DNA from: a virus
Direction: 5' to 3' (one strand)
IMG/VR virus record: IMGVR_UViG_3300044627_000222
Span: 1-22,344 of that record
DNA: 22,344 nt
Positions 6,609-22,344 of the stretch are shown piece by piece; position 1 is the first letter of the stretch, and every line of letters starts with the position of its first letter. Position numbers and translations under genes: made by a program. The notes beneath the pieces were generated by a model. It saw only the letters and a list, made by a program, of their open reading frames with translations. It had not been told where the DNA came from and did not search any database.

Positions 6609-7184
6609 TTATTTAATCCCATACAGAGCGAAAGATGAGTATTGCTGCCATTGTGAACCGTCAGACACATTAAAAGATATTGATGTGATTGCATTAGTGT
6701 TTCTCCAAGAACCAGAATACAATCCAACCGAACCACCATAGCCCGCAACGGTTCCATTTATATCGTTACCCATTAGACAGCGTGCCGTTTTATATTTATT
6801 GGTATTAGCATAATCTAATATGTCTATAATGGCTGTTGTAAAATATGTAACAGAAGTTCCAGGTTGTCCGACTCCAATACTTGTTGTACTCGCTGAACCA
6901 CCAACCTGCACTCCAGATGTAAGGTTTCCACCGCCCTGTCCAATTATTTCGTGGTTGGAGTAATTTGACCCTGAATCAGAATTGAATGTCATATTAGTTC
7001 CGCTTACTGGGTAGGTTGCTCTGTTACCACGCCAAAATCCTCTGATTTGTAAGTGCTTGTAAGTACTTGGAATACTAGAAAATGTAATTGTAGTTTGAGC
7101 AGATGAAAGAGTATAGGTTTGAATTGAGTCAAACGCGGCACTTATTGTTTGCATAGAAGAAGCAATAACCCCAAGAATAGGCAT
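6609..7184 (-). CDS. Receptor-binding-type beta protein, paralogue 3
   Basis: The ATG at 7184 overlaps the stop of the preceding fibre gene (TAATG) and gives 191 residues; the frame is open upstream to 7235, but that lies inside the fibre gene. After about 20 residues it has the shared plan: ITFSSIPSTYKHLQIRGFWR, FNSDSGSNYSNHEI, DILDYANTNKYKTARC, GLYSGSWRNTNAITSISF and YSSFALYGIK. Of the three it is nearest to the version I recall from metagenomic phages (the SSIPSTYKHLxI and DYANTNKYKT motifs). A Gly-rich loop region (GQGGGNLTSGVQVGGSAS) lies in the centre. It is probably a tail-tip receptor-binding or fibre-head domain. Confidence 0.68.
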   Translation of the reverse strand: MPILGVIASSMQTISAAFDSIQTYTLSSAQTTITFSSIPSTYKHLQIRGFWRGNRATYPVSGTNMTFNSDSGSNYSNHEIIGQGGGNLTSGVQVGGSASTTSIGVGQPGTSVTYFTTAIIDILDYANTNKYKTARCLMGNDINGTVAGYGGSVGLYSGSWRNTNAITSISFNVSDGSQWQQYSSFALYGIK

Positions 7185-7927
7185 TAGGCAATATCTCCAA
7201 ACACATACCAAAGATCCGTTCCTGCTTTTACGCAAGTTGCGGCGCTATAACGCACTCTTAGTTTAGGAGCAGCAGCAGTTGCGCCAGTTGATTGGATCGT
7301 TGTAGTGCCGCTTGTGACAGCCTGAATTGTGGTTTGACCTGCACCAATTTGTAGCACATTTATTTGTGTGCCAATTGGGAAAGCCACAGAAGCGTTAGTC
7401 GGAATAGAAAATGTGTTAGCCGAGGCGTTATCCATAGTGACAACTTGACTGTTATTAGCAAGAACCGCCGTATAAGAAGCGGTTTCGGCGTCAAAGCCTA
7501 AGTTTATCTTTGCGTCAGTTAAAGTTTTATTAGTAAAAGTTTCAGTTCCAGTTAATGAGGCAAGAGTTACAGAACCTGTTGGAAGCGTAACCGTTCCGCT
7601 GTTGCTGATGCTTGAAATAACAGGAGTGGTTAAAGTCTTATTAGTAAGCGTTTGCGCTGTTGTAAGATCAGCCGTAACAGCCGTGTCAATTGAGACTGTA
7701 ACAGTTCCACTTGTTCCGCCTCCGCTAAGACCAGTTCCAGCAGTTACACCTTCAATGTCGCCCGCGCCTTGGTAAGCCAAAGAGGTCCACGCCGTTGATC
7801 CATTTCCAATCTTAACTTTGCCTGTATCGGTCTCAAAACCCCACTCGCCAGCGGCAAGCGTTGGATTAGTTGAAGTCCATTGAGACGCTGTTCCCCTACG
7901 AACTTGAATCTGTGTTACAACTGCCAT
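7184..7927 (-). CDS. Tail fibre with Mtd-type N-terminal domain and LTNKTL repeats
   Basis: This 247-residue protein has three parts. Residues 1-50 (VTQIQVRRGTASQWTSTNP; then AAGEWGFETDTGKVKIGNG) match the N-terminal domain of phage major tropism determinants, which anchors fibres to the tail tip. The middle holds a GLSGGGTSG stretch and two copies of LTNKTL / FTNKTL, a known fibre-shaft repeat. The C-terminal 100 residues form a beta cap (VVTMDNASANTFSIP...GDIA) that is also present in the larger fibre at 8178-9218. The start at 7927 overlaps the stop of the preceding small gene. The resemblance to the Mtd domain does not imply a diversity-generating retroelement; none is visible. Confidence 0.78.
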   Translation of the reverse strand: MAVVTQIQVRRGTASQWTSTNPTLAAGEWGFETDTGKVKIGNGSTAWTSLAYQGAGDIEGVTAGTGLSGGGTSGTVTVSIDTAVTADLTTAQTLTNKTLTTPVISSISNSGTVTLPTGSVTLASLTGTETFTNKTLTDAKINLGFDAETASYTAVLANNSQVVTMDNASANTFSIPTNASVAFPIGTQINVLQIGAGQTTIQAVTSGTTTIQSTGATAAAPKLRVRYSAATCVKAGTDLWYVFGDIA

Positions 7928-8181
7928 CAGGGAGTTCCTCCGTTTACGGTCTGTGTTGAAGTCGTTGTTGGATCGCCACCATTATAAGGCGCAATGCTAT
8001 CAAACACACCTGCATCTACTTCAGTCAATGGCGGAACGCCCATGGCGGACCAGGCTGCGCCTGTGTAAACCTTTAAGCCTTCGGTTGTGTTGTAGTAGAG
8101 ATCGCCAGCCCTGAGAGTTGGCGTATTAATGTCCGTGGCTGAAACGGGAACATTGGTGGGAGTTAATGCTAGGCGACTCAT
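7927..8181 (-). CDS. Small tail-fibre-associated protein
   Basis: This 84-residue protein is dominated by the LRAGDLYYNTTEGLKVYTGA motif followed by AWSAMG, the short module seen in many phage fibres (GDLYYNT-x-x-x-L-x-V-x-x-G-x-x-W). A similar module occurs in the fibre-like protein at 3617-4231 (GDIIFDNTPDQMKYWNGTEW). It overlaps the preceding fibre by 4 nt (ATGA at 8178-8181) and shares its stop with the next start. It may be a fibre linker, or a split-off N-terminal part of the following fibre. No other domain is visible. Confidence 0.65.
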   Translation of the reverse strand: MSRLALTPTNVPVSATDINTPTLRAGDLYYNTTEGLKVYTGAAWSAMGVPPLTEVDAGVFDSIAPYNGGDPTTTSTQTVNGGTP

Positions 8182-9218
8182 GAAATGTCACCCATGATCA
8201 ACCATGTGTCGGTCGCGGTTTGAACTGCCGTGGCTGTTGAATATTGCGCTCTTAACTTAGGAGCCGTTGCGGTTGCACCCGTTGAAGCAATAGTCACGCC
8301 TCCTGCGCCTGAAATTGTTACTTGGCCCGCTCCCATTTGCGCAATGTTTATCTGAGCGCCTACTGGATAAGCCACGCTCGAATTCAAGGGAATGGTTGTG
8401 GCGATAGCGCTGGCGTTTGTTTGCGTTACAAGTTTACCGTTGTCGGCTAGAACAGTTGTGTAAGTGGTTCCTGTTTGAGCATTTATGCCTAAATTTATAA
8501 GCGGCGAAGTTAATGTTTTATTAGTAAGAGTTTGAGTTCCAGTTAAAGTGACTACTCCAGTCAAAGTATTACTTGCTGCGTCAATAGTTTTATTAGTCAA
8601 AGTTTGTGCCGTTGTTAGATCGGCAGTCACGGCTGTGTTGATAGCCAAAGTTACTGATCCGCTAGTGCCACCACCTGAAAGTCCTGTGCCAGCCACAACC
8701 GCGCTGATGTCACCTGACTCAGGAATGTTTGTGGTTACAAGAACGCGTGTGTCTGTAATGTTGGCGTTTGTGATTGCAGTTGCGCCCGCACCAACGGCTA
8801 CAGTTGCCAGGGTGATTGAGTTGGCTGGAAGCGATGGAGCCACAGGAGATCCCGCAGGGGTTCCCGCAACAACCTGAAGGACAACATTGTTTAGCGATCC
8901 TGTGTAATACGCGTCATTTACAGTTGCGCAAACAAGATCAATGCGTGGGTTAGTTGGGTTTGCGGTGTTCAAAGAAAGAACGCTGCTTGCATCGTTGTAG
9001 GTTACATAAGTTCCCATGTTGGCTTGCGTAGTTCCAACAATTGCTGCCCAACCTGATGCAACAACAACAGAAAGACCAGGAGGTGTGTTTTGCGTGACAA
9101 GTAAAGAAGCGCTGTTGATAATACCTGTGGTGGCCCAAAGCGCCTGGGTTGTAAGGCGATCGTTTTCAGCAGGGTGAGAGCCGTTCTGCAACCAACTGGG
9201 CGGGGTTCTAACTGTCAT
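8178..9218 (-). CDS. Tail fibre / baseplate-type minor tail protein
   Basis: This 346-residue protein starts at an ATG with AGGAGAATAA upstream. Residues 1-160 (RTPPSWLQNGSHPAENDRL; then GLSVVVASGWAAIVG; later NPRIDLVCATV) resemble the N-terminal part of phage baseplate or appendage proteins that attach to the distal tail. The middle carries GTGLSGGGTSG and LTNKTI / LTNKTL shaft repeats, and the end is a beta cap finishing APKLRAQYSTATAVQTATD-TWLIMGDIS. Middle and cap are paralogous to the fibre at 7184-7927. It directly follows the distal tail protein gene. Attachment through the N-terminus and host contact through the C-terminus are inferred. Confidence 0.75.
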   Translation of the reverse strand: MTVRTPPSWLQNGSHPAENDRLTTQALWATTGIINSASLLVTQNTPPGLSVVVASGWAAIVGTTQANMGTYVTYNDASSVLSLNTANPTNPRIDLVCATVNDAYYTGSLNNVVLQVVAGTPAGSPVAPSLPANSITLATVAVGAGATAITNANITDTRVLVTTNIPESGDISAVVAGTGLSGGGTSGSVTLAINTAVTADLTTAQTLTNKTIDAASNTLTGVVTLTGTQTLTNKTLTSPLINLGINAQTGTTYTTVLADNGKLVTQTNASAIATTIPLNSSVAYPVGAQINIAQMGAGQVTISGAGGVTIASTGATATAPKLRAQYSTATAVQTATDTWLIMGDIS

Positions 9219-9226
9219 TTATTCTC

Positions 9227-10090
9227 CTAAATGTAAGCCGATTGCCAAGTCACAGTTGCACCTGTCACACCCACTACTGTACTACCTGCGTTGCCTGTTA
9301 GGTAGAACAAGTTAGTACCTGGTTGCGCAGAGAACCATTGACCCGAAGCCAGCAAGTTTCGAGCAGGGTTTCCGTTTAAAGTGATTAGTTTATTGTATAA
9401 GTCTACGGTTAAGAAATCTGTGTTAGTGAGTGAACAAGTAAAGTTCAGAGCCAAGTTTTCAGTTTGGTTGCCCAAGATCGGGTTAATGATTGGGCCGTTT
9501 AACACAATGGTTGGATAGGTGTCGGTCCAGCCGTTGTTCTCAATGTTGGTCGTAATTAATACTGATCCGCCGCCATACAGTAGGTTATAAACGCGGTTAT
9601 AAGTTCTGCCTCCAGGCGGGGTGTAGTTCAGAGTTGCGGTTTGAGTGTTGGAGTCGTAATACCGAGGATCAGGGCAAAAGAAACTGACCTGGGCCACGAT
9701 GTAGCCGTAGGTGTAGTTAGGGTCCACAGAGGCACTCAAGCCTCGTACACGGGCGTTTATGACCTGTTCGCCTGCTGCATTGGACAAGATAAAGTAAAGA
9801 GGCGTTGTGCCGCTTGCCTGTGGCAAAAGGGCCAACTGAAGAGTGTTGAAATTTGTTTGAGCCGATGCCCCGCTGTTAGCCAAGATCTGAACCAGCATTG
9901 TAATGTATCGGCCGCCAAGGAAGTCACGGCCCGAGAACATACCGTCTGCGTAGCCTCTGTTGTCATCTTGAGATCGGATGCCAGGCAAACCTTCTAACCC
10001 ATCAACGCTCAAGATTTGATAAGGCGATCCTGTTCCGCCAAAGACCTGGTTGTTGAATGAGAACGAATAATTGGCTATTACTGCTGGCAT
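9227..10090 (-). CDS. Distal tail protein (Dit-like, siphovirus tail component)
   Basis: This 287-residue protein fits the siphovirus distal tail protein family. The N-terminal ring-forming beta domain includes GLEGLPGIRSQDDNRGYADG and FLGGRYITMLVQI, followed by a helix with FNTLQLALLPQA; FFCPDPRYYDS near residue 140 is a typical hinge between the two domains. The C-terminal half is a galectin-like beta region (GGSVLITTNIENNGWTDTYP). Dit forms the ring that closes the tail tube and receives hub and fibres. It sits next to the tape measure gene, as usual, and starts on a TGATG overlap with its stop. Confidence 0.85.
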   Translation of the reverse strand: MPAVIANYSFSFNNQVFGGTGSPYQILSVDGLEGLPGIRSQDDNRGYADGMFSGRDFLGGRYITMLVQILANSGASAQTNFNTLQLALLPQASGTTPLYFILSNAAGEQVINARVRGLSASVDPNYTYGYIVAQVSFFCPDPRYYDSNTQTATLNYTPPGGRTYNRVYNLLYGGGSVLITTNIENNGWTDTYPTIVLNGPIINPILGNQTENLALNFTCSLTNTDFLTVDLYNKLITLNGNPARNLLASGQWFSAQPGTNLFYLTGNAGSTVVGVTGATVTWQSAYI

Positions 10091-13050
10091 CAGGTGACCA
10101 TAGCCCCTCTTGGAGCGCCGCCGCCGCCTCCACTATTTAATGTAATTGTTCGAGCCTTAATTGAAGCAGCACCAATTGCGCCGCTTTCACCAGCAGCCAA
10201 CTTGCTAGGTGCGGTAGGAACTACAACATTTCCAAACTTGATTGCGTTCACCACGCTAGTGGTTGTTGCATAAGGATCAGAAAGATTGACTCCAGTAATA
10301 CTGATGTTGTTGTTTGTGGTTGGACCATAAGGAGTGTTGCCAACTCCACCCTTTGAGTTAGTACCACCTGTCACAAATGGTGTGTTTGTAATCTTTGCAG
10401 AAGCGGCAGATGAATAAGCGCTGCTTGCAGAAGCCAAGGCAGCAGTTGCCGCCGCTACCGCAGCCAATTGCGCTTTAAGGGCGGCTAACTTTTGCGCTGT
10501 GGTTGCAGAAATCTCATCAATTGCCTTTTGATAAGCAAGTTGAGCATCAACCAAAGCCTTCTGTAGAACCTTTTGGGCTTCGGCTAATCCTTCATTGAGT
10601 TTCTTTTGTGCTTCCTCGCGGGCCTTTTGTAATATTGCAGCAGACTCAGCAAGAGAAGCCTCAAGGCGTGCTTTGGCTTCCGCGATCGCGGTCTGTAGTT
10701 GTGTGGCCGCCTCAAGCATACGAGCATCGCGTTCAACCTTGGCTTCGGTCATAGCGCGGGCATACTCGGCGTTGGCTTCTGCCAAGGAGTTCATTAACTC
10801 CATGTCAACTTCGGCCAAAGAGTTCTTGAGATCAATTGCTACTTGATCGTAAGCCTGGCGCAATTCAGATGTGGCTAGGTTTGCTCCGTTGCTCATGGAC
10901 TTAGCCAAAGCGTCTAAGCCTGTGTCTTGGATGCCTTCGAGATCCATAAAGGTCTCGCGGATTTCTTTCTGTTGTTCAGGTGATGATTTCTTTAATTCAT
11001 CGATCATCTGATTGCCAACTTCAGGTCCAGCCTTTACAACTTGCTCAATAAAGGTCTGTGCGTAACCTTCGCCCGCAAGATAAGCAGCGCCTTGTTGTAG
11101 TTTCTTAGCCGCTTCCAGTTCCTTTTTCATTTGCTCCAGGAACCCGCCTGAAGTTTTACCCTTGAAAGCCTCGGTCAAACTGAAAGATGTACCTGATGCA
11201 AAAGCGCTACGCAAGCGATCCACAGACTGCTGGATAATTGATGCTTCTTTTTCAGCAGCCTTAACGCGCAGATCAGCAGACTTGTCAGCCGCCGCCTTTT
11301 TTAGATCCACCAGTTTTCTTTGAAGGGTTGCCTCAATGTCTGCGGTTTTCTTTGCATAGTCTTTAGCAATGTCCACCATGGCTTGGGTGTGTGCCTTCTG
11401 AGCATCAGTTACAGCGGCATCATAAGTTTTCTGTGCATCGGCTCGGCGCTCGCGGTCTGCTTCCTCGGCTTCTGCAATTGCTTCACCGTAGGCTTTGTGT
11501 AGATCAGCAACCTTCTCTTGATACTTTTCATGCGCCTCAATGGACTTTTCAATAAATGTTGTTTCAATATCAAGCATCTTTTCAGCGCGATCTTTTGCTT
11601 CCTCGGCCGCTTTCTTTGCCGCTTCTGTCACTTTTGGATCAACTACGCCAGGCTTGCCTTTTCCACCCTTAGTTGCTTTCTCTACCTTCTTGCCGTTCTT
11701 TTCAGCAGCCGCACCCATCTTGTCTAAACCAGCAGATAATTCTTTGGCTTTCTTTGACGCGGCATTGGCAAAGTCGCTGATACCGTTCAAGCCTTTATTC
11801 ATTAAGTCAAGTCCTGCTTTTGCGTACTTGCCCACTCCAGGAAGTTTAGAAAGCGCCAAAAGTAAAAGACGAAGTGGCCCTGTTGAGATTTTCATGATCG
11901 CTTCAAAGACCTGGCCAACCATAGGTATGATTGAAGCAAAAGCATTGAGAGCAACTTTGGCCACAGAAATCACGGCTTTTCTAAAGGACTCATTGCTGTT
12001 CCATAGTTTCACCATGGCAGCAACAAGAAGCCCCACGGCAATAACAATCAAGCCGATCGGGTTCAGTTTCTGAACCAAGTTGAGAATTTTCTGTTGAATA
12101 ATTGCTGCCTTTACAAACACGGTGTAAGCACCCCAAGCAGCGCCAAGCACTCCAACCGTGATGGCAAAGGCTTTGACTTCGGCTTGGTTGTTCTTAAAGA
12201 ACTCACCGATCTTAGTTAAAACAGGAATAAGTAATTCTAATATTTTTAACAAACCTCTAAAGGCTGGCATAAGCGCCTCGCCCAACGCTACCTTTGCATC
12301 CTCAATTTTGGCTTGCAGGGTTTTCATGGTGTTTGCAGTTCCATCGGCGGTGCGTGCGTAGTCACCCTGGGCAAGTGCTGTGTCTTTTAAGATCAATGAG
12401 TAAGCAGCCTGGGACTTAATCGCAACAGGCAAAGTTCCACTTGTTGTTTTAATCAAACCCATGCGCAGGGCTTCCTCTTTAAGACGAACTTCTGAAAGGG
12501 CAACGCCGAACTTCTTTAGCGGTTCTGTTTCACCTGAAAGACCTGATCGCAAAGCGGTGATGGCTTGATCGATGGATGTGTTGTTAAAGGAAGCCATGTC
12601 TGCGGCCAACTGAACAAGATTAGTTGACATCTTTTGGGCTTCGCCTTGGCCCAAACCAAACGCCTGGAATAAGTTGCCGTAAGTTCCAGCGGCTTCTAAA
12701 GCAGCCTGGTTAGAAATACCAAGGTTCTGCGCGGCGCTTGCGCCAAAGGCTTCTACTTCGGCAGCGCCTTCGCCAAAGACAACTCGTACCTTTGATAGAG
12801 ACTCTTCCATGTTGCTGGCTGCCATAATTGACTCTTTGGCAAATGCTGCAACTTGAGATGCGGCAAAAGTAGCACCAAGTGCAGCGCCCACCTTTTTCAG
12901 GTTGCCCACAAAGTTGGTCATGCCACCGCTGGCCTTTTTTACATTGTCATCTACACCCTTGATCGCGTTTTGCGCTTGGGCAAGCCCCGCTTTTAACTGA
13001 GTTACATCTGCTTGTATCTGAATGAGGATTGGCGGGATTGTTGATGCCAT
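10090..13050 (-). CDS. Tape measure protein
   Basis: This 986-residue protein is the longest in the window. Residues 1-250 match the TP901-type tape measure core (ADVTQLKAGLAQAQ; ESIMAASNMEESLSKVRVVF; NTSIDQAITALRSGLSGETE; LKKFGVALSE). Hydrophobic segments lie around 262-282 (the AFRGLLKILELLIPVLTK helix), 294-320 and 332-348 (IGLIVIAVGLLVAAMV). Residues about 475-610 and 735-880 are long Ala/Lys/Glu/Asp-rich coiled coils; the C-terminus is Gly-rich. Tape measures set tail length and leave the tube at DNA ejection. By the usual rule of about 1.5 angstrom per residue the tail would be near 150 nm. GAGGAG precedes the start. Confidence 0.93.
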   Translation of the reverse strand: MASTIPPILIQIQADVTQLKAGLAQAQNAIKGVDDNVKKASGGMTNFVGNLKKVGAALGATFAASQVAAFAKESIMAASNMEESLSKVRVVFGEGAAEVEAFGASAAQNLGISNQAALEAAGTYGNLFQAFGLGQGEAQKMSTNLVQLAADMASFNNTSIDQAITALRSGLSGETEPLKKFGVALSEVRLKEEALRMGLIKTTSGTLPVAIKSQAAYSLILKDTALAQGDYARTADGTANTMKTLQAKIEDAKVALGEALMPAFRGLLKILELLIPVLTKIGEFFKNNQAEVKAFAITVGVLGAAWGAYTVFVKAAIIQQKILNLVQKLNPIGLIVIAVGLLVAAMVKLWNSNESFRKAVISVAKVALNAFASIIPMVGQVFEAIMKISTGPLRLLLLALSKLPGVGKYAKAGLDLMNKGLNGISDFANAASKKAKELSAGLDKMGAAAEKNGKKVEKATKGGKGKPGVVDPKVTEAAKKAAEEAKDRAEKMLDIETTFIEKSIEAHEKYQEKVADLHKAYGEAIAEAEEADRERRADAQKTYDAAVTDAQKAHTQAMVDIAKDYAKKTADIEATLQRKLVDLKKAAADKSADLRVKAAEKEASIIQQSVDRLRSAFASGTSFSLTEAFKGKTSGGFLEQMKKELEAAKKLQQGAAYLAGEGYAQTFIEQVVKAGPEVGNQMIDELKKSSPEQQKEIRETFMDLEGIQDTGLDALAKSMSNGANLATSELRQAYDQVAIDLKNSLAEVDMELMNSLAEANAEYARAMTEAKVERDARMLEAATQLQTAIAEAKARLEASLAESAAILQKAREEAQKKLNEGLAEAQKVLQKALVDAQLAYQKAIDEISATTAQKLAALKAQLAAVAAATAALASASSAYSSAASAKITNTPFVTGGTNSKGGVGNTPYGPTTNNNISITGVNLSDPYATTTSVVNAIKFGNVVVPTAPSKLAAGESGAIGAASIKARTITLNSGGGGGAPRGAMVT

Positions 13051-17064: not shown

Positions 17065-18735
17065 TTACGCGTTTACAATTCCTGAAACTGCGCCGTTCCA
17101 TGCAGGAGCAGAGCAGAAGAATGTGCCACGGAAGTATGTTGAGAAGTCATAAGAGAACTGAGTTACAGGCCATTGGATACCCATGTAGTCCTGAACCATG
17201 TAGTTCGCCCAAACATCTGAAACCTCTGTGTCAGGGATTGGAAGTGTGAATGAAAGGATTGGAGCAACGCCCTGGTTGAGCCATGGGTGAACCATAAGAT
17301 CAACAGCCTTGCCTGTTACTTCATTCTGTAGACCAGTTACAACTGATCCGTAGGTTGTGCCGTCTTCGCCTGGGTTGTTGATAACCAAACGGTAGTTGGC
17401 TGTTGAGCCGCTCTTGATTGCATCAGAGAGTTGCTTACGATCGTTACCGTTAAGTAGAACAACATCAGGATCAGCCTTTACATTCTGGTACATAGAAGCG
17501 AATGCAGTCTGGAATTCTCCACCTGGGTTAGAAGTTGAGAACGCGCTGTTGATCGCGTTGTTGTAACCTGAGTTAGGTCCTAGAACAGTTGGAAGGATAC
17601 CGTCGTAACCAGTTGCGTAAGCAGATGTGTCTGCTGCTGCGCGTGATGCTGCGGCTCCTGTTGTTGTGAAGGCTGCGTTGTTACCTGTTAGGCCCTGTGT
17701 TCCTGCTGCCTGAATTGTGAAGGTACCAGTTCCCTTAAGTGTTCCCTGATACTTTAAGTTTGCAGCGCCTGTTGCAGTTCCAACATAGATGTTGTAACCA
17801 AGTGCGCCAACTACTGCTGTTGATACGGTGATTGTTAGAACATCGCCTGATGCAACTGCTGTGTTTGCTTCTGTTCCGAGAATTGACTCGCCGAAGCCGT
17901 TACCTGAGATACCAGCGTCAGCAGTCACATTTACATAGTAAGTATTGGCTGCTAGTGCTGTTTGTGATGCTGATGCAACTGGAGATGCAAGAGCAAATGT
18001 AGGTGCTGTTAGAGCGCCTGAGTATCCGCTTGCTGTTCCGCGTGCCATAAGCATCATGCGCTCTTCCATCAACATTGTTGCGTAGAGAGTTGATGTTGAT
18101 GACAACTGACGGAGATCTTGGTAACCAAGACCTGAGAAGTTAGCATCAAATGTAACGCTGTCAGATAGTGAGTATGAGTTGTAAGGCAGGATTAAATCTT
18201 GCGCAGCATAACTGATAATTGGTCCACGCTCGTAATTGATAGAACCAAAAGTTGCAGTTGAACTTTGAGTGATACCTGGCCATAGGTTGCCAACTCCACC
18301 AGTTCCTGTACCTGTGTAGCCGAGGATCTGCTTCTGACGATGGCTAGTGCCTACGCCTTTCTTGCGAGGGATACGGTTACGGAGAGGTGTTGGGCGTGGT
18401 GTGAGCAACTTAGCAGGTGCTTCAAGATCGAAGGCTGCAAAAGATGTTGAGAGTGGAGATGTAAGGGTGATGTCCTTCTGCATATCCTGCATAGCAAGGC
18501 GCTGTGCAGCAAGTGCGTTTTGAAGGCCCGCTGATACATCAGGAGATAGAGACTTGTTTGCTACAAGTGCTTCGATCTGCGCTGCTGGATCTGCAAGAGG
18601 TGCTTGTCCTGGAACTGTAGATGCGCTTGAGAGGGACTTTCCAAGTTCGGAAGTGTATTCCTCCATGCGCTCTGCGGCTTCGCGTGGACTTGCATCACCA
18701 AATAGGTCTGTGACCTTAGGTGTTGATAATGTCAT
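17065..18735 (-). CDS. Major capsid protein (HK97 fold) with inserted Ig-like domain
   Basis: This 556-residue protein is identified by position between protease/scaffold and connector, and by HK97-like elements: a helical N-terminal arm (1-90), the GPIISYAAQDLILPYNSYSL region, an axial helix region with LYATMLMEERMMLMARG, and a C-terminal part with DPDVVLLNGNDRKQLSDAI and NPGEDGTTYGSVVTG. Residues about 243-350 interrupt the core with an Ala/Thr/Gly-rich all-beta segment (NTYYVNVTADAGISGNGFGE; ALGYNIYVGTATGAANLKYQ) resembling an Ig/fibronectin-type fold, which probably projects from the capsid surface. The length exceeds the usual 300-400 residues by about that insertion. AAAGGAT precedes the start. 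An N-terminal propeptide cleaved by the upstream protease is possible. Confidence 0.85.
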   Translation of the reverse strand: MTLSTPKVTDLFGDASPREAAERMEEYTSELGKSLSSASTVPGQAPLADPAAQIEALVANKSLSPDVSAGLQNALAAQRLAMQDMQKDITLTSPLSTSFAAFDLEAPAKLLTPRPTPLRNRIPRKKGVGTSHRQKQILGYTGTGTGGVGNLWPGITQSSTATFGSINYERGPIISYAAQDLILPYNSYSLSDSVTFDANFSGLGYQDLRQLSSTSTLYATMLMEERMMLMARGTASGYSGALTAPTFALASPVASASQTALAANTYYVNVTADAGISGNGFGESILGTEANTAVASGDVLTITVSTAVVGALGYNIYVGTATGAANLKYQGTLKGTGTFTIQAAGTQGLTGNNAAFTTTGAAASRAAADTSAYATGYDGILPTVLGPNSGYNNAINSAFSTSNPGGEFQTAFASMYQNVKADPDVVLLNGNDRKQLSDAIKSGSTANYRLVINNPGEDGTTYGSVVTGLQNEVTGKAVDLMVHPWLNQGVAPILSFTLPIPDTEVSDVWANYMVQDYMGIQWPVTQFSYDFSTYFRGTFFCSAPAWNGAVSGIVNA

Positions 18736-18756: not shown

Positions 18757-20799
18757 TTAGTTGTTATCGCTGTCGGATGCTTTGGAGTAAAACTCCTCGG
18801 CTAGTTGCTTATAACCTTTAGCGAGAACGGGGTCTGTTGTTGCGTTTGCTTTCGCTTTGTAAATGGCTGCCTTTGTAAGGTTGTCATTGATCTTGGTAGA
18901 CAATGGCTTCGCTGTACGGCTTGGGCCGCCAGCCACTGCGAGAGACTTGGCAATTGCTAACTCAGACTCAAGAACTACCGACTTCTCTAGTGCGACCTCT
19001 TTTGCCGCAACTAATGAAGCGATCTCTGCTCGAAGTGACTCAGTCGCGCTCTTTACCACCTGCTCTACGATGGCTTCAACATCTGCTGCATCAACTTCCG
19101 TTGGTGCTTCAGAATTCTCTGTTACTGCCTCTTCAACTGGAGTCTCTGCTGGAGTCTCTTCGGTTGGGGCTTCCTCAACTGCCGCTTCGTCTGCTTCTGC
19201 TGACTTAGGGGTTTCACCTGGCGCATACATTTCTGCGGTGGTGACATGAGATGGCTTTGCGATGTTCGCAAAATCGTTAGTTGTTTTTAATCCGTGATCG
19301 CTGCCAGGTTGGTTGCATCCACACTCTAGGCACTTAGCAATGTCGGCAGACTTTTCTGCACCCATGTATTTATCGCACATGGCTTTGATGGTTTCATCAT
19401 CCATGCCCGCTTCTTTACAGCGTGCTTTGTATTCTTTCTCTGTTTCGCCTTTCATAGGCTTTAATTCTTTTACTTCAGGCTTTGATGCCATTTCGATTAC
19501 CTCTTCCATGGTTTCCCCTTCTGCTTTTTCCCCTTCGTACCAGGCAAAGAGGTGGTGGACTGCCGACAATAAACACTGAAGGGAATATTCCTCGCTGTGT
19601 CCACTTTCAGACATTTCTTTTGCTTCAATTTGGATCAAGTCTGCAAGCGCGGTGCGAGCAGCATCGTATGTTTTCTGATCGAACTTTAATAGATCGGCGC
19701 TGGCAAATGACTTAGATACTTCTACTAATTCAGATGCTGCGGTCATATCAAACTCCATCTCGATGGTGTCTGATTGTAACCCTTTTTTAGATTCCGCCTT
19801 GTATTTTCCGCCACGCTTTTTATACTCGCGCACCACCCAGGCGTTGGCATAAGCGGATGGGTAAACATCAAACTTTGCCTTGGCATCTCTTTTAACTTCC
19901 TCGTACAGGTCCTTATCTGCGGGTTCTCCCTTGCGAGGTTTGATTACTTGAGTGAAATCCTCTTCCTCTTTCTTTCCAATCCAATCCTCTGTTAATTCCT
20001 CGACCTGAACCAGGCTGGACTCGCCATCCACGCTTTTGGCCAAGATCAATTTGGCATTCGGATTGGCAGGGCGATCCACTAGAGATACTTCTACGATTTG
20101 ACCGTCAATGATGCGGCCGTTCACAGCCTTGTTATCACGCACAACGCGTGGAGATTTAATTCCGATGGAGAAACCCTTAAGGACTCCGTTTTCAACCTTC
20201 TTAACTGAAATGGGATCGACAACCAAAGCATGAATGTAATGTCCATCCGCTTTAACTTCGTATTCTTTAGCCACTCCTGCTGCAATTGATGAGTGTTGCT
20301 CACGGATGTTGCCGCCTGTCTTAAACCAGTCGGGCATGGCTCGATCAAGCCACGCAGCGTCACAAATCTGCTGGTCGATGTCGAGTGAGTCATCAGTTGC
20401 CTTGCCGTAAACCATAAGGGTTCCATCAGCCTGACGATCTGCTTTCTCAATACTGAAATACGAGGTTGTTAAATCCGTCATTGTTGATTTCTCCTTGTTT
20501 TCTTGTTGTCTAAGAATACCTTTAGCCCAAGACCATCCTGCATCGCCACCCCATAGTAACCAAGCGATGTAGCCAGCGCTGTCTACGCCCCAGCCTTCAC
20601 CTTTCTTGTCCACCTCGTGGCGGGCAAAATAGGAATTCATCCTTTTGATTGTGTCTAATGATAGCGCTGCTCCGTTGGATAAGTCTCTTGCTCGAGCAAC
20701 TCCGACTTCGGTTCCACCGCGACCGTGTTTCTTACGAAGTTCAAGACCGCGTTTTGCATTGCCACGCACTTGCTGCGGCGGTACAAATCCATCGGCCAT
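18757..20799 (-). CDS. Prohead protease / scaffold fusion with extra domains
   Basis: The ATG at 20799 is preferred (AAGGA 6 nt upstream; the ATG at 20805 abuts it). It gives 680 residues in at least four parts. Residues 1-100 carry a domain with MNSYFARHEVDKKGEGW and GYIAWLLWGGDAGWSWAKG. About 115-260 is an HK97-type protease (U35-like): His169 in REQHSSIA, Ser211 in GFSIGI, and VEVSLVDRPANPNAK. About 295-345 resembles DUF5872 (FDVYPSAYANAWVVREYKKR). Then follow an acidic helical part, a CLECGC motif, and a Glu/Pro/Thr linker. The C-terminal 130 residues are coiled-coil and scaffold-like (VEAIVEQVVKSATESLRAEI). It would guide capsid assembly, then degrade itself. Confidence 0.83.
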   Translation of the reverse strand: MADGFVPPQQVRGNAKRGLELRKKHGRGGTEVGVARARDLSNGAALSLDTIKRMNSYFARHEVDKKGEGWGVDSAGYIAWLLWGGDAGWSWAKGILRQQENKEKSTMTDLTTSYFSIEKADRQADGTLMVYGKATDDSLDIDQQICDAAWLDRAMPDWFKTGGNIREQHSSIAAGVAKEYEVKADGHYIHALVVDPISVKKVENGVLKGFSIGIKSPRVVRDNKAVNGRIIDGQIVEVSLVDRPANPNAKLILAKSVDGESSLVQVEELTEDWIGKKEEEDFTQVIKPRKGEPADKDLYEEVKRDAKAKFDVYPSAYANAWVVREYKKRGGKYKAESKKGLQSDTIEMEFDMTAASELVEVSKSFASADLLKFDQKTYDAARTALADLIQIEAKEMSESGHSEEYSLQCLLSAVHHLFAWYEGEKAEGETMEEVIEMASKPEVKELKPMKGETEKEYKARCKEAGMDDETIKAMCDKYMGAEKSADIAKCLECGCNQPGSDHGLKTTNDFANIAKPSHVTTAEMYAPGETPKSAEADEAAVEEAPTEETPAETPVEEAVTENSEAPTEVDAADVEAIVEQVVKSATESLRAEIASLVAAKEVALEKSVVLESELAIAKSLAVAGGPSRTAKPLSTKINDNLTKAAIYKAKANATTDPVLAKGYKQLAEEFYSKASDSDNN
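20481..20496 (-). promoter_or_regulatory. Internal ribosome binding site and ATG within the protease gene
   Basis: On the minus strand AAGGAG (20496-20491) lies 9 nt before an in-frame ATG at 20481 (MTDLTTSYFSIEKADRQADG). This start would give a 574-residue protease/scaffold without the N-terminal domain, beginning where typical HK97-type proteases begin. Both starts may be used. Confidence 0.5.
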
Positions 20800-20841
20800 G
20801 TTCATCCTTATCTTACGGTTGATTGCATTACTTTAGCAGTT

Positions 20842-21672
20842 TTACTGAGAAGGTACAGGCACAAGGCTTGCGCCTTCAGGAATATCTACTCCAAAGTCAG
20901 GAATCACAGGCAACAAGGCACAACGGCAATTTGGATGCGCGGGCGGTTGAGTGTTTCCCGAGTTAAAGGTTCCACCGATCGGCACGACTTGGTTGGCATT
21001 CTGTGCGCACAAAGGACAAGGGTCTGAAACCTCCCATTCCATTTCAGGGATCTGCATCTCCTTGTAGCGATTGATCGTTGCAGCCGACATAGCGCGGTTC
21101 TGTTCGGTGATGGCAATTGTTAAAGCCCGATGCGAGGTGGCCACATTGCGCCTGATCAACTTGGCCGCTTGGTTGGCAGAAAGACCCTGCTCCAAAGCAT
21201 CGGCGATCGAGTTGCCAATGTCATTAATGGTCGTGTTTGTTAATTCTTTCAGGGTGATACCAAAGGACTCTAGGAAGCGTTGGAAGGCCCTGGAAGGTCG
21301 AAGCAACAATGCGGCAGCCTCATCGCCTGGGTTCCATAACGCCCAGTTAATCAGATCATCATCGGCGGCTTTGTTTGCTTCTTTGGCTTTGGCAATCAAT
21401 TCATCGGCAGCGGCTTGTCCTGTTACCCAGCCCTCGGCATAAACGCGCTCAAGCACACCCATCAAAGCCATCATGTTAACTCTGACATTGAGCATGACCC
21501 AGGAACGCGCTCGCGCACGATCTTGAGAACGGTTGTCTGAAAGGTTTGGTTGCGTTCTGAGATAACTCTCGAACACGCGTTTGAATTCTGCCGTTTGTGC
21601 CAACGCTGCTCTGACTTTTACTGCACTCTTGGCCGCCATTCGCCCATCGGCTTGGAGAGGCCCCCACTTCAT
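20842..21672 (-). CDS. MuF-like minor head protein
   Basis: From the ATG at 21672 (ATGA overlap with the portal stop at 21669) this is 276 residues. The frame is open further upstream to 21729, inside the portal gene. It has a basic helical N-terminus, a long helical middle (RAFQRFLESFGITLKELTNT; ANQAAKLIRRNVATSHRALT) and the MuF/SPP1 gp7 signature: ITEQNRAMSAATINRYKEM, then DPCPLCAQNA (Cys219, Cys222) and PPAHPNCRCALLPV (His246, Cys249, Cys251). The Cys/His set could bind zinc. Such proteins attach to the portal inside the head and are thought to be ejected with DNA in some phages. No toxin domain is fused at its C-terminus. Confidence 0.85.
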   Translation of the reverse strand: MKWGPLQADGRMAAKSAVKVRAALAQTAEFKRVFESYLRTQPNLSDNRSQDRARARSWVMLNVRVNMMALMGVLERVYAEGWVTGQAAADELIAKAKEANKAADDDLINWALWNPGDEAAALLLRPSRAFQRFLESFGITLKELTNTTINDIGNSIADALEQGLSANQAAKLIRRNVATSHRALTIAITEQNRAMSAATINRYKEMQIPEMEWEVSDPCPLCAQNANQVVPIGGTFNSGNTQPPAHPNCRCALLPVIPDFGVDIPEGASLVPVPSQ

Positions 21673-22344
21673 GACAAGTAAGCCTTGGCAAGCGCTCGAG
21701 CGCTTTCTAGATCGCCTTCGTAAGCACATCGGTTTAACGCATCGCCCACAATCGGATCGAGTGTTTTGAATTCAAAGAGGCGAGCGCGTTTACCCTTGTT
21801 GGCCCACTTCATGAAAGCCTTAACTTCGTTCTTGGTTTCGTTTTCGATCTCTTCCTCTTCAAGAACAGTTGGTTCCTTGTCGGGCTTCTCGCCGATCTCG
21901 GTAACTGGTGCAACGGCTTCTGCGTTAGGCCCTGCCAAAGCGGGTGCTGTTGAAGCGGTAGATGCATCGATGATGCCATCAGGACTGAAAAGGAATGTGC
22001 TGGCCCCTGCCATCAAGATTGGCATATCGGCTTGCGGTGTATCAAGTAAAGGAAGGCCCAGTTCAGAGCGGCGTTCGTTGATTGTCTTACCACCGCTTGT
22101 TACTTCAATTTGGTTCTTGCGAGCGTTTGACTCATTGTCCAGGCGCTTTGAAGTCATCAATCTAAACTCCAACTCGCGTGGCATACCAAGGTATGTGTAC
22201 GAGATGTTTGTAAGCATCTTGCTGATCCAGTTAACCAAAGGCTGTGTTCCGATTGCCTCAGCGCTTTCCGCCCGCCCCTCCTCGAAACCAGCGCCTCCCA
22301 GCCCGCCTTTCGGTGCAAAACCGATCTCGGCTGGTTGAACGCCG
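21669..22344 (-). CDS. Portal protein, C-terminal part (cut off by window edge)
   Basis: The frame is open from the right edge to the TGA at 21669, giving 224 complete codons. The edge segment reads GVQPAEIGFAPKGGLGGAGF then EEGRAESAEAIG, a loop typical of many phage portals (IGF-x-x-KGGLGG-x-GF-x-EG-x-AE). After it comes a helical part (LVNWISKMLTNISYTYLGMP; ELEFRLMTSKRLDNESNARK) and the GGKTINERRSELGLPLLD motif common near portal C-termini. The tail is acidic (EKPDKEPTVLEEEEIENETK) and ends in a helical segment. A TTG at 22238 is not a real start, because coding continues upstream. Portal forms the DNA channel at one capsid vertex and docks the terminase, whose genes should lie just off the right edge. 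Confidence 0.86.
   Translation of the reverse strand, partial: GVQPAEIGFAPKGGLGGAGFEEGRAESAEAIGTQPLVNWISKMLTNISYTYLGMPRELEFRLMTSKRLDNESNARKNQIEVTSGGKTINERRSELGLPLLDTPQADMPILMAGASTFLFSPDGIIDASTASTAPALAGPNAEAVAPVTEIGEKPDKEPTVLEEEEIENETKNEVKAFMKWANKGKRARLFEFKTLDPIVGDALNRCAYEGDLESARALAKAYLS

Follow-up and report, generated by a model that had tools for sequence, protein, structure and literature searches.

We propose that the open reading frame at 18757-20805 on the minus strand of the analysed window (the whole stretch of 22,344 nucleotides of virus record IMGVR_UViG_3300044627_000222) is a protease-scaffold gene with two exchange slots, and that it gives rise to two overlapping products, the longer of which would take its N-terminal domain (N) to the DNA of the prohead; to this reading we assign a probability of about 0.6. 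Both N and the DUF5872 domain of the same protein are exchangeable cassettes outside any known protease family. The first slot, here holding N, lies exactly between the leader of the gene and the start codon of the protease, while the second, here holding DUF5872, lies just past the protease domain. According to the proposed mechanism, the N cassette would have been inserted in frame at the protease start codon with the internal start site preserved, so that a short protease-scaffold would be made from Met109 and a long form from Met3; the long form would co-assemble through the shared scaffold part and bring N into the prohead, where this compact, basic and helical domain may contact DNA, either before the protease frees it or as a packaged passenger. 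The cassettes in two slots, the internal start and the variable acidic segment at residues 346-480 are additions to an earlier sequence-only reading of this DNA, which had described one polypeptide joining an N-terminal domain, a protease, a DUF5872-like segment, a Cys-containing acidic linker and a scaffold-like part.

The 682 codons of the frame contain no internal stop, in agreement with the single polypeptide of that reading. The frameshift that could have joined separate genes, which the reading itself had named among its refuting conditions, and an assembly artefact are both rejected, since the intact fusion occurs in dozens of independent contigs. Met3 is a likelier start than Met1, as it is preceded by an AAGGA motif with a stronger predicted Shine-Dalgarno duplex (−6.0 versus −1.4 kcal/mol) and alignments of N-bearing relatives mostly begin at window residues 2-5; the previously given end at 20799 thus coincides with the likelier start, although the frame itself extends to 20805. 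The position of the gene, between a Mu F-like head gene and a probable capsid gene (Table 1), is where a prohead protease and scaffold customarily lie. The product of the downstream gene shares 26% identity with the ‘major head protein’ of Alicyclobacillus phage MMB025, and the capsid proteins of the nearest isolates are only 25–27% identical to it.

Table 1. Features of the fused gene and its neighbours (window positions; residues counted from Met1)
Feature	Position	Strand	Description or basis
Mu F-like minor head protein gene, upstream neighbour	20842..21729	-	Pfam PF04233, E 5.6e-14
Shine-Dalgarno-like AAGGA for the long form	20805..20809	-	5 nt ahead of Met3
Whole ORF	18757..20805	-	682 aa; N domain, prohead protease, DUF5872, variable segment, Cys motif, acidic linker, C-terminal scaffold-like segment
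Met3 (ATG GCC GAT), likely start codon of the long form	20797..20799	-	Shine-Dalgarno duplex; alignments of relatives
N domain, residues 3-106, predicted five-helix fold	20488..20799	-	AlphaFold2 pLDDT 94.5, pTM 0.86; part of PHROG 2859 (E 3e-21)
WGGDAG core of N domain	20536-20553	-	WLLWGGDAGWSWA near residues 82-94
Internal Shine-Dalgarno AAGGAG, read as Lys-Glu in the long form	20491..20496	-	kept in 42/43 fused DNA clusters
Internal start codon Met109, protease start in N-less relatives	20479..20481	-	comparison with relatives
Prohead protease, assemblin/gp21 fold (predicted), residues 113-260	20026..20469	-	Foldseek, T4 gp21 (5jbl); PHROG 80 and PHROG 3270 (head maturation protease)
Candidate catalytic His171 (REQH)	20293..20295	-	12/13 aligned relatives, X (unread) in the remaining one; role assumed from motif and fold
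Candidate catalytic Ser213 (GFSIG)	20167..20169	-	13/13 aligned relatives; role assumed from motif and fold
DUF5872 domain, residues 295-340, slot 2	19786..19923	-	Pfam PF19197, E 8e-9, 36.5 bits (gathering cut-off 27.5)
Variable acidic segment, residues 346-480	19366..19770	-	sequence comparison with relatives
Cys/His motif C-x2-C-x-C-x7-H, residues 491-505, candidate metal site	19291..19335	-	KCLECGCNQPGSDHG; in 48/90 relatives
Conserved C-terminal segment at scaffold position, residues 571-682	18760..19095	-	43–99% identity in relatives; directly precedes probable major capsid gene
PHROG 13692 protein gene, downstream neighbour, probable major capsid protein by homology	17065..18735	-	PHROG 13692, E 1.8e-80

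The protease had been taken for an HK97-type enzyme, a claim which stands at the level of the fold only. The model of this region matched T4 gp21 (PDB 5jbl; Foldseek probability 1.00, E 3.7e-5, 13% identity), followed with a weaker E by herpesvirus assemblin, in a whole-protein model with a mean pLDDT of 64.7 that stays mostly at about 80 across the protease. The window protease thus appears to share with assemblin-type enzymes both the predicted fold and the conserved His and Ser. On the other hand, its scores remained below the curated thresholds of Peptidase_S78 (PF04586; 14.4 bits against a cut-off of 21) and of the HK97 prohead protease model TIGR01543 (14.4 bits against 59). Other proteases that carry N, L184 for example (118.9 bits), are recognised by the same profile. 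Residues 571-682 matched none of the scaffold family models, while their position and conservation fit a protease-then-scaffold ORF upstream of a capsid gene. From sequence comparison, the protease and this C-terminal segment stay constant among relatives.

The remaining segments, namely N, DUF5872, the Cys motif and the variable acidic segment, are variably present in relatives and differ in their order. A first scan yielded 39 related loci, and the tree comprises 111 distinct protease sequences; as the relatives were sampled partly by N, the proportions with and without it do not represent natural frequencies. Along this tree, the presence of N changes 18 times, at least 12 of them forced by well-supported branches, that of DUF5872 16 times and that of the Cys motif 15 times. 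The clearest example is given by L005, with N, and L017, without it, which are 99.6% identical across 5,776 nt beginning 1 nt ahead of the protease start, while the 52-nt leader before the ATG of N in L005 is a 92% match for the stretch of equal length ahead of the protease ATG in L017. The same pattern appeared, less cleanly, in the pairs L014/L021, L108/L095 and L118/L110, among others. Recent exchange of N is also signalled by the window and L014, whose synonymous sites differ by 18% in the N cassettes and by 68% in the proteases. Protease, scaffold and adjacent genes are shared by close relatives that lack N. No N was found elsewhere on nine contigs of N-less relatives (15–43 kb, which may be fragments), so that supply of N in trans is rejected for these contigs and N appears dispensable.

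The second break falls about 490–525 nt into the protease gene, directly past the protease domain. Among 90 relatives, this slot contained DUF5872 in 42, inserts of the KHxxHxQSSHGR type in 17, a GRFG motif in three and a DUF6582-like segment in one. The DUF5872-like segment of the sequence-only reading is well founded, its Pfam match lying above the cut-off and spanning profile positions 1–50 of 116. A Cys motif exists as well, but precedes the acidic linker instead of lying inside it; in L006-L010 it is placed ahead of the variable segment, unlike the order in the window, and in L027 and L144 DUF5872 comes ahead of N. Searches revealed no solved structural relative of DUF5872, three records of this domain in isolate phages and no isolate-phage match for the Cys motif. 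The literature searched assigns no function to DUF5872, which occurs there in the description of an algal virus genome. Another N-terminal module, ‘MPYHIG..GC.G(Y/F)PVVKD..V.GCHKT..DA..QL.ALY’, was observed ahead of N or of the protease in several unrelated head proteases (L003, L022, L037, L166, L171 and L181); isolate phages gave no match to it at the search sensitivity applied.

The N domain, with the WGGDAG core already pointed out in the sequence-only reading, was predicted with confidence as a five-helix fold. Residues 1-106 matched no Pfam or NCBIfam family, and N has neither a fold match in the PDB nor a significant sequence match among solved chains. A Pfam search of 92 N members returned nothing better than an E of about 0.003, with marginal HTH-type matches (best E about 0.01), and no significant profile or fold match to known DNA-binding families (HTH, histone-like) was obtained. 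PHROG 2859, whose function is unassigned, is a model of 740 positions of which N takes only about 110. Contrary to the earlier impression of an uncommon domain, a genome scan detected 388 relatives of N, and further matches in viral sequences were numerous. In viral contigs, portals of the lambda and HK97 types carry it C-terminally, several unrelated head proteases (S78, S49-type and others) have it on one side or the other of the protease, and protease-capsid fusions include it too; BFVD adds XkdF, ParB-like, HVA-TUDOR and Dps-annotated proteins as partners. Among isolates, N occurs in Vibrio, Roseobacter, Synechococcus, Pseudomonas and haloarchaeal viruses, and in Vibrio phages 1.122 and 1.270, HGTV-1 and CRP-811 it lies beside the head protease. 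Since N is present on unrelated proteins and also alone, its assignment as part of a protease family is rejected, in line with the earlier suspicion that the extra domains were not ordinary protease parts.

Bacterial genomes of Rhizobiales and relatives, Verrucomicrobia and Patescibacteria encode a stand-alone N protein of about 100–130 aa. In Xanthomonas (L199, L211 and other loci), a chromosomal N is followed by a Lys/Ala-rich, histone-H1-like tail of 150–200 aa, at a locus common to many species of the genus; the match of this tail to Pfam HC2 (E 2e-4) is under the curated cut-off, and the tail is low in complexity. Other stand-alone chromosomal copies lie at non-phage loci, for example beside homologues of ruvA and carB identified by eye, from which no function can be read as the neighbours differ between genera. 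In the portion of the PaBG virion proteomics covered, nothing was found for gp148, a stand-alone N protein. Purifying selection acts on N, with pS of 0.50–0.76 and pN of 0.025–0.11 in four of five relatives, and many of the residues that are near-invariant in the 92 members are basic (R24, R29, R38, R40, R55, R62, H63 and K67 in the near-invariant set). The interior of the prohead is faced by the scaffold, the prohead protease and the C-terminal regions of the portal; its repeated fusion to such parts suggests that N is repeatedly set where DNA arrives. Given the basic conserved residues and the nucleic-acid-related cellular contexts, DNA contact would be the most economical role for N. The best reading is therefore, as we infer, that N may be a nucleic-acid-binding domain brought into the prohead, and its partners (portals, unrelated head proteases, ParB-like proteins and the H1-like tail) fit the packaging or DNA-binding function that the sequence-only reading had put forward for the extra domains.

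N could also be an assembly adaptor, since portals of the lambda and HK97 types bear it C-terminally and the protease genes next to them bear it N-terminally; it would then dock the protease-scaffold to the portal or terminase and thereby make head assembly begin at the portal vertex, with no binding to DNA. CRP-811 and S-CBS1, in which N opens the gene directly downstream of the portal gene, agree with such a role. We nevertheless consider it rather unlikely, as the close N-less relatives agree in protease, scaffold and flanking genes and stand-alone N is found at the non-phage chromosomal loci mentioned above.

If the long form brings N to the prohead, its dose could be set by the second start that has been retained within the fusion. 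N-less relatives have their start at the counterpart of window Met109, in most cases behind an AAGGAG-type site. Of the 43 clusters of fused sequences (defined at 90% DNA identity), 42 retain both the in-frame internal Shine-Dalgarno and the start codon, which is ATG in 33 and GTG in nine. Where valine occupies the internal start it is encoded by GTG in all nine cases and never by the other three codons, compared with 14% of Val codons elsewhere. Likewise, the Glu at the main Shine-Dalgarno position appeared 26 times as GAG and never as GAA (GAG elsewhere, 28%), while the adjacent Ser and Thr codons vary. Synonymous resampling with the protein fixed (5,000 trials) yielded a mean of 15.2 and a maximum of 28 Shine-Dalgarno-start sites versus the 42 observed, a figure that overstates independence and is not a strict probability, since the 43 clusters are related sequences; other in-frame ATG or GTG codons had a Shine-Dalgarno in 59 of 760 cases. 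As the N cassettes of the window and L005 differ at 75% of synonymous sites (the same holding for L124), conservation of the internal start is not simply due to recent ancestry. Among 27 ORFs beginning with N, a strict Shine-Dalgarno precedes the internal start in 26 and the start of N itself in 10, and the duplex at the internal start is the stronger in 19, equal in one and weaker in seven; in the window the energies are −8.5 kcal/mol for the internal start and −6.0 for that of the long form, which suggests that the short form may be the major product.

The window family thus contains the conserved internal in-frame ribosome-binding site and start by which a nested gene is recognised. With the cassette joined in frame and the protease's own ribosome-binding site and start codon left in place inside the fusion, the gene probably yields two overlapping proteins, a short protease-scaffold initiated at Met109 and a long N-carrying form initiated at Met3. 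A second, unrelated protease family (PHROG 207), arranged as N, protease, DUF6582 and zinc ribbons, keeps an AGGAG/GGGAG-type site and ATG in 19 of 19 distinct fused sequences, and in its N-less members the start falls on that same ATG, with a comparable site. In two loci of this family (L296 and L146), the protease, DUF6582 and several zinc ribbons occur in one ORF, a parallel to the Cys motif of the window protein. No obvious internal Shine-Dalgarno was seen in the N-bearing protease-capsid fusions L166, L181 and L191, which argues that N does not generally require two products; the internal-start rule appears common, not universal.

The placement of N directly ahead of unrelated proteases, together with the retained second start, might suggest a regulatory pro-domain that restrains or times the protease, the internal start providing unrestrained enzyme. 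We regard this as improbable, because N is also found after the protease (L172 and L175) and on portals that have no protease, where such control is hard to picture. Equally hard to sustain is the idea that only the long protein is made, N being a neutral hitch-hiker and the internal site a passive leftover which a slot exactly at the start codon would inherit automatically, as the Shine-Dalgarno codons have not drifted and the Val start is always GTG in spite of the synonymous divergence of the N cassettes, and N is under purifying selection.

The arrangement proposed here, a long form loading N beside a complete short protease-scaffold, has a precedent in phage lambda, where gpC and gpNu3 combine protease and scaffold in one reading frame with a nested in-frame scaffold gene. 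In both systems protease and scaffold share the frame and a second product, predicted in the case of the window, comes from an internal in-frame start; however, the lambda start yields the scaffold alone, whereas that of the window would yield the complete protease-scaffold, leaving N unique to the long form. T4 gp21 resembles the window protein in its protease fold at the low identity given above and, to our knowledge, has neither N nor DUF5872 cassettes. T4 internal proteins pass into the prohead, where its protease processes them, and some of them exit with the DNA. The packaged head proteins of giant phages likewise enter the prohead and undergo processing by its protease, some of them leaving with the DNA (PMC10052503). 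Those packaged proteins are separate genes with propeptides, while the window passenger is a cassette on the protease-scaffold and would be packaged as such. Shuffling of protein fragments in phages has been described as domain exchange, with sequence-level signals that include a capsid assembly class (PMC10684548); a word search of the main text of that study gave no mention of proteases or portals. No description of cassette slots, of a protease start kept within a fusion or of the N domain was found in the literature searched, which was mostly non-subscription.

More tentatively, phage portals and head proteases may in general carry standard exchange slots by which unrelated phages bring interchangeable passenger domains into the capsid, with the retained start of the pre-protease slot setting a sub-stoichiometric passenger dose and with a hitherto undescribed DNA-binding domain, shared with bacterial chromosomal proteins, as one common passenger. 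If this were true, phage head genes would hold a recognisable address system for extra capsid proteins, dosed through two starts, and natural fusion points would be available for capsid protein loading. It would also provide a first testable role for a very widespread domain without a Pfam model, which carries the label ‘unknown function’ in phages and is present on bacterial chromosomes as well. For annotators, start calls on such proteases would be ambiguous by design.

Elsewhere in the window, neighbouring tail-region ORFs at 7184-9218 contain repeated ‘TAVTADLTTAQTLTNKTL’ segments, which suggests duplication. A small ORF at 1647-1907 matched the C-terminal part of PHROGs labelled phosphofructokinase, a label that is probably not its actual function, and the tape-measure protein at 10090-13050 displays a long repetitive Ala/Glu/Lys-rich stretch in its C-terminal third.
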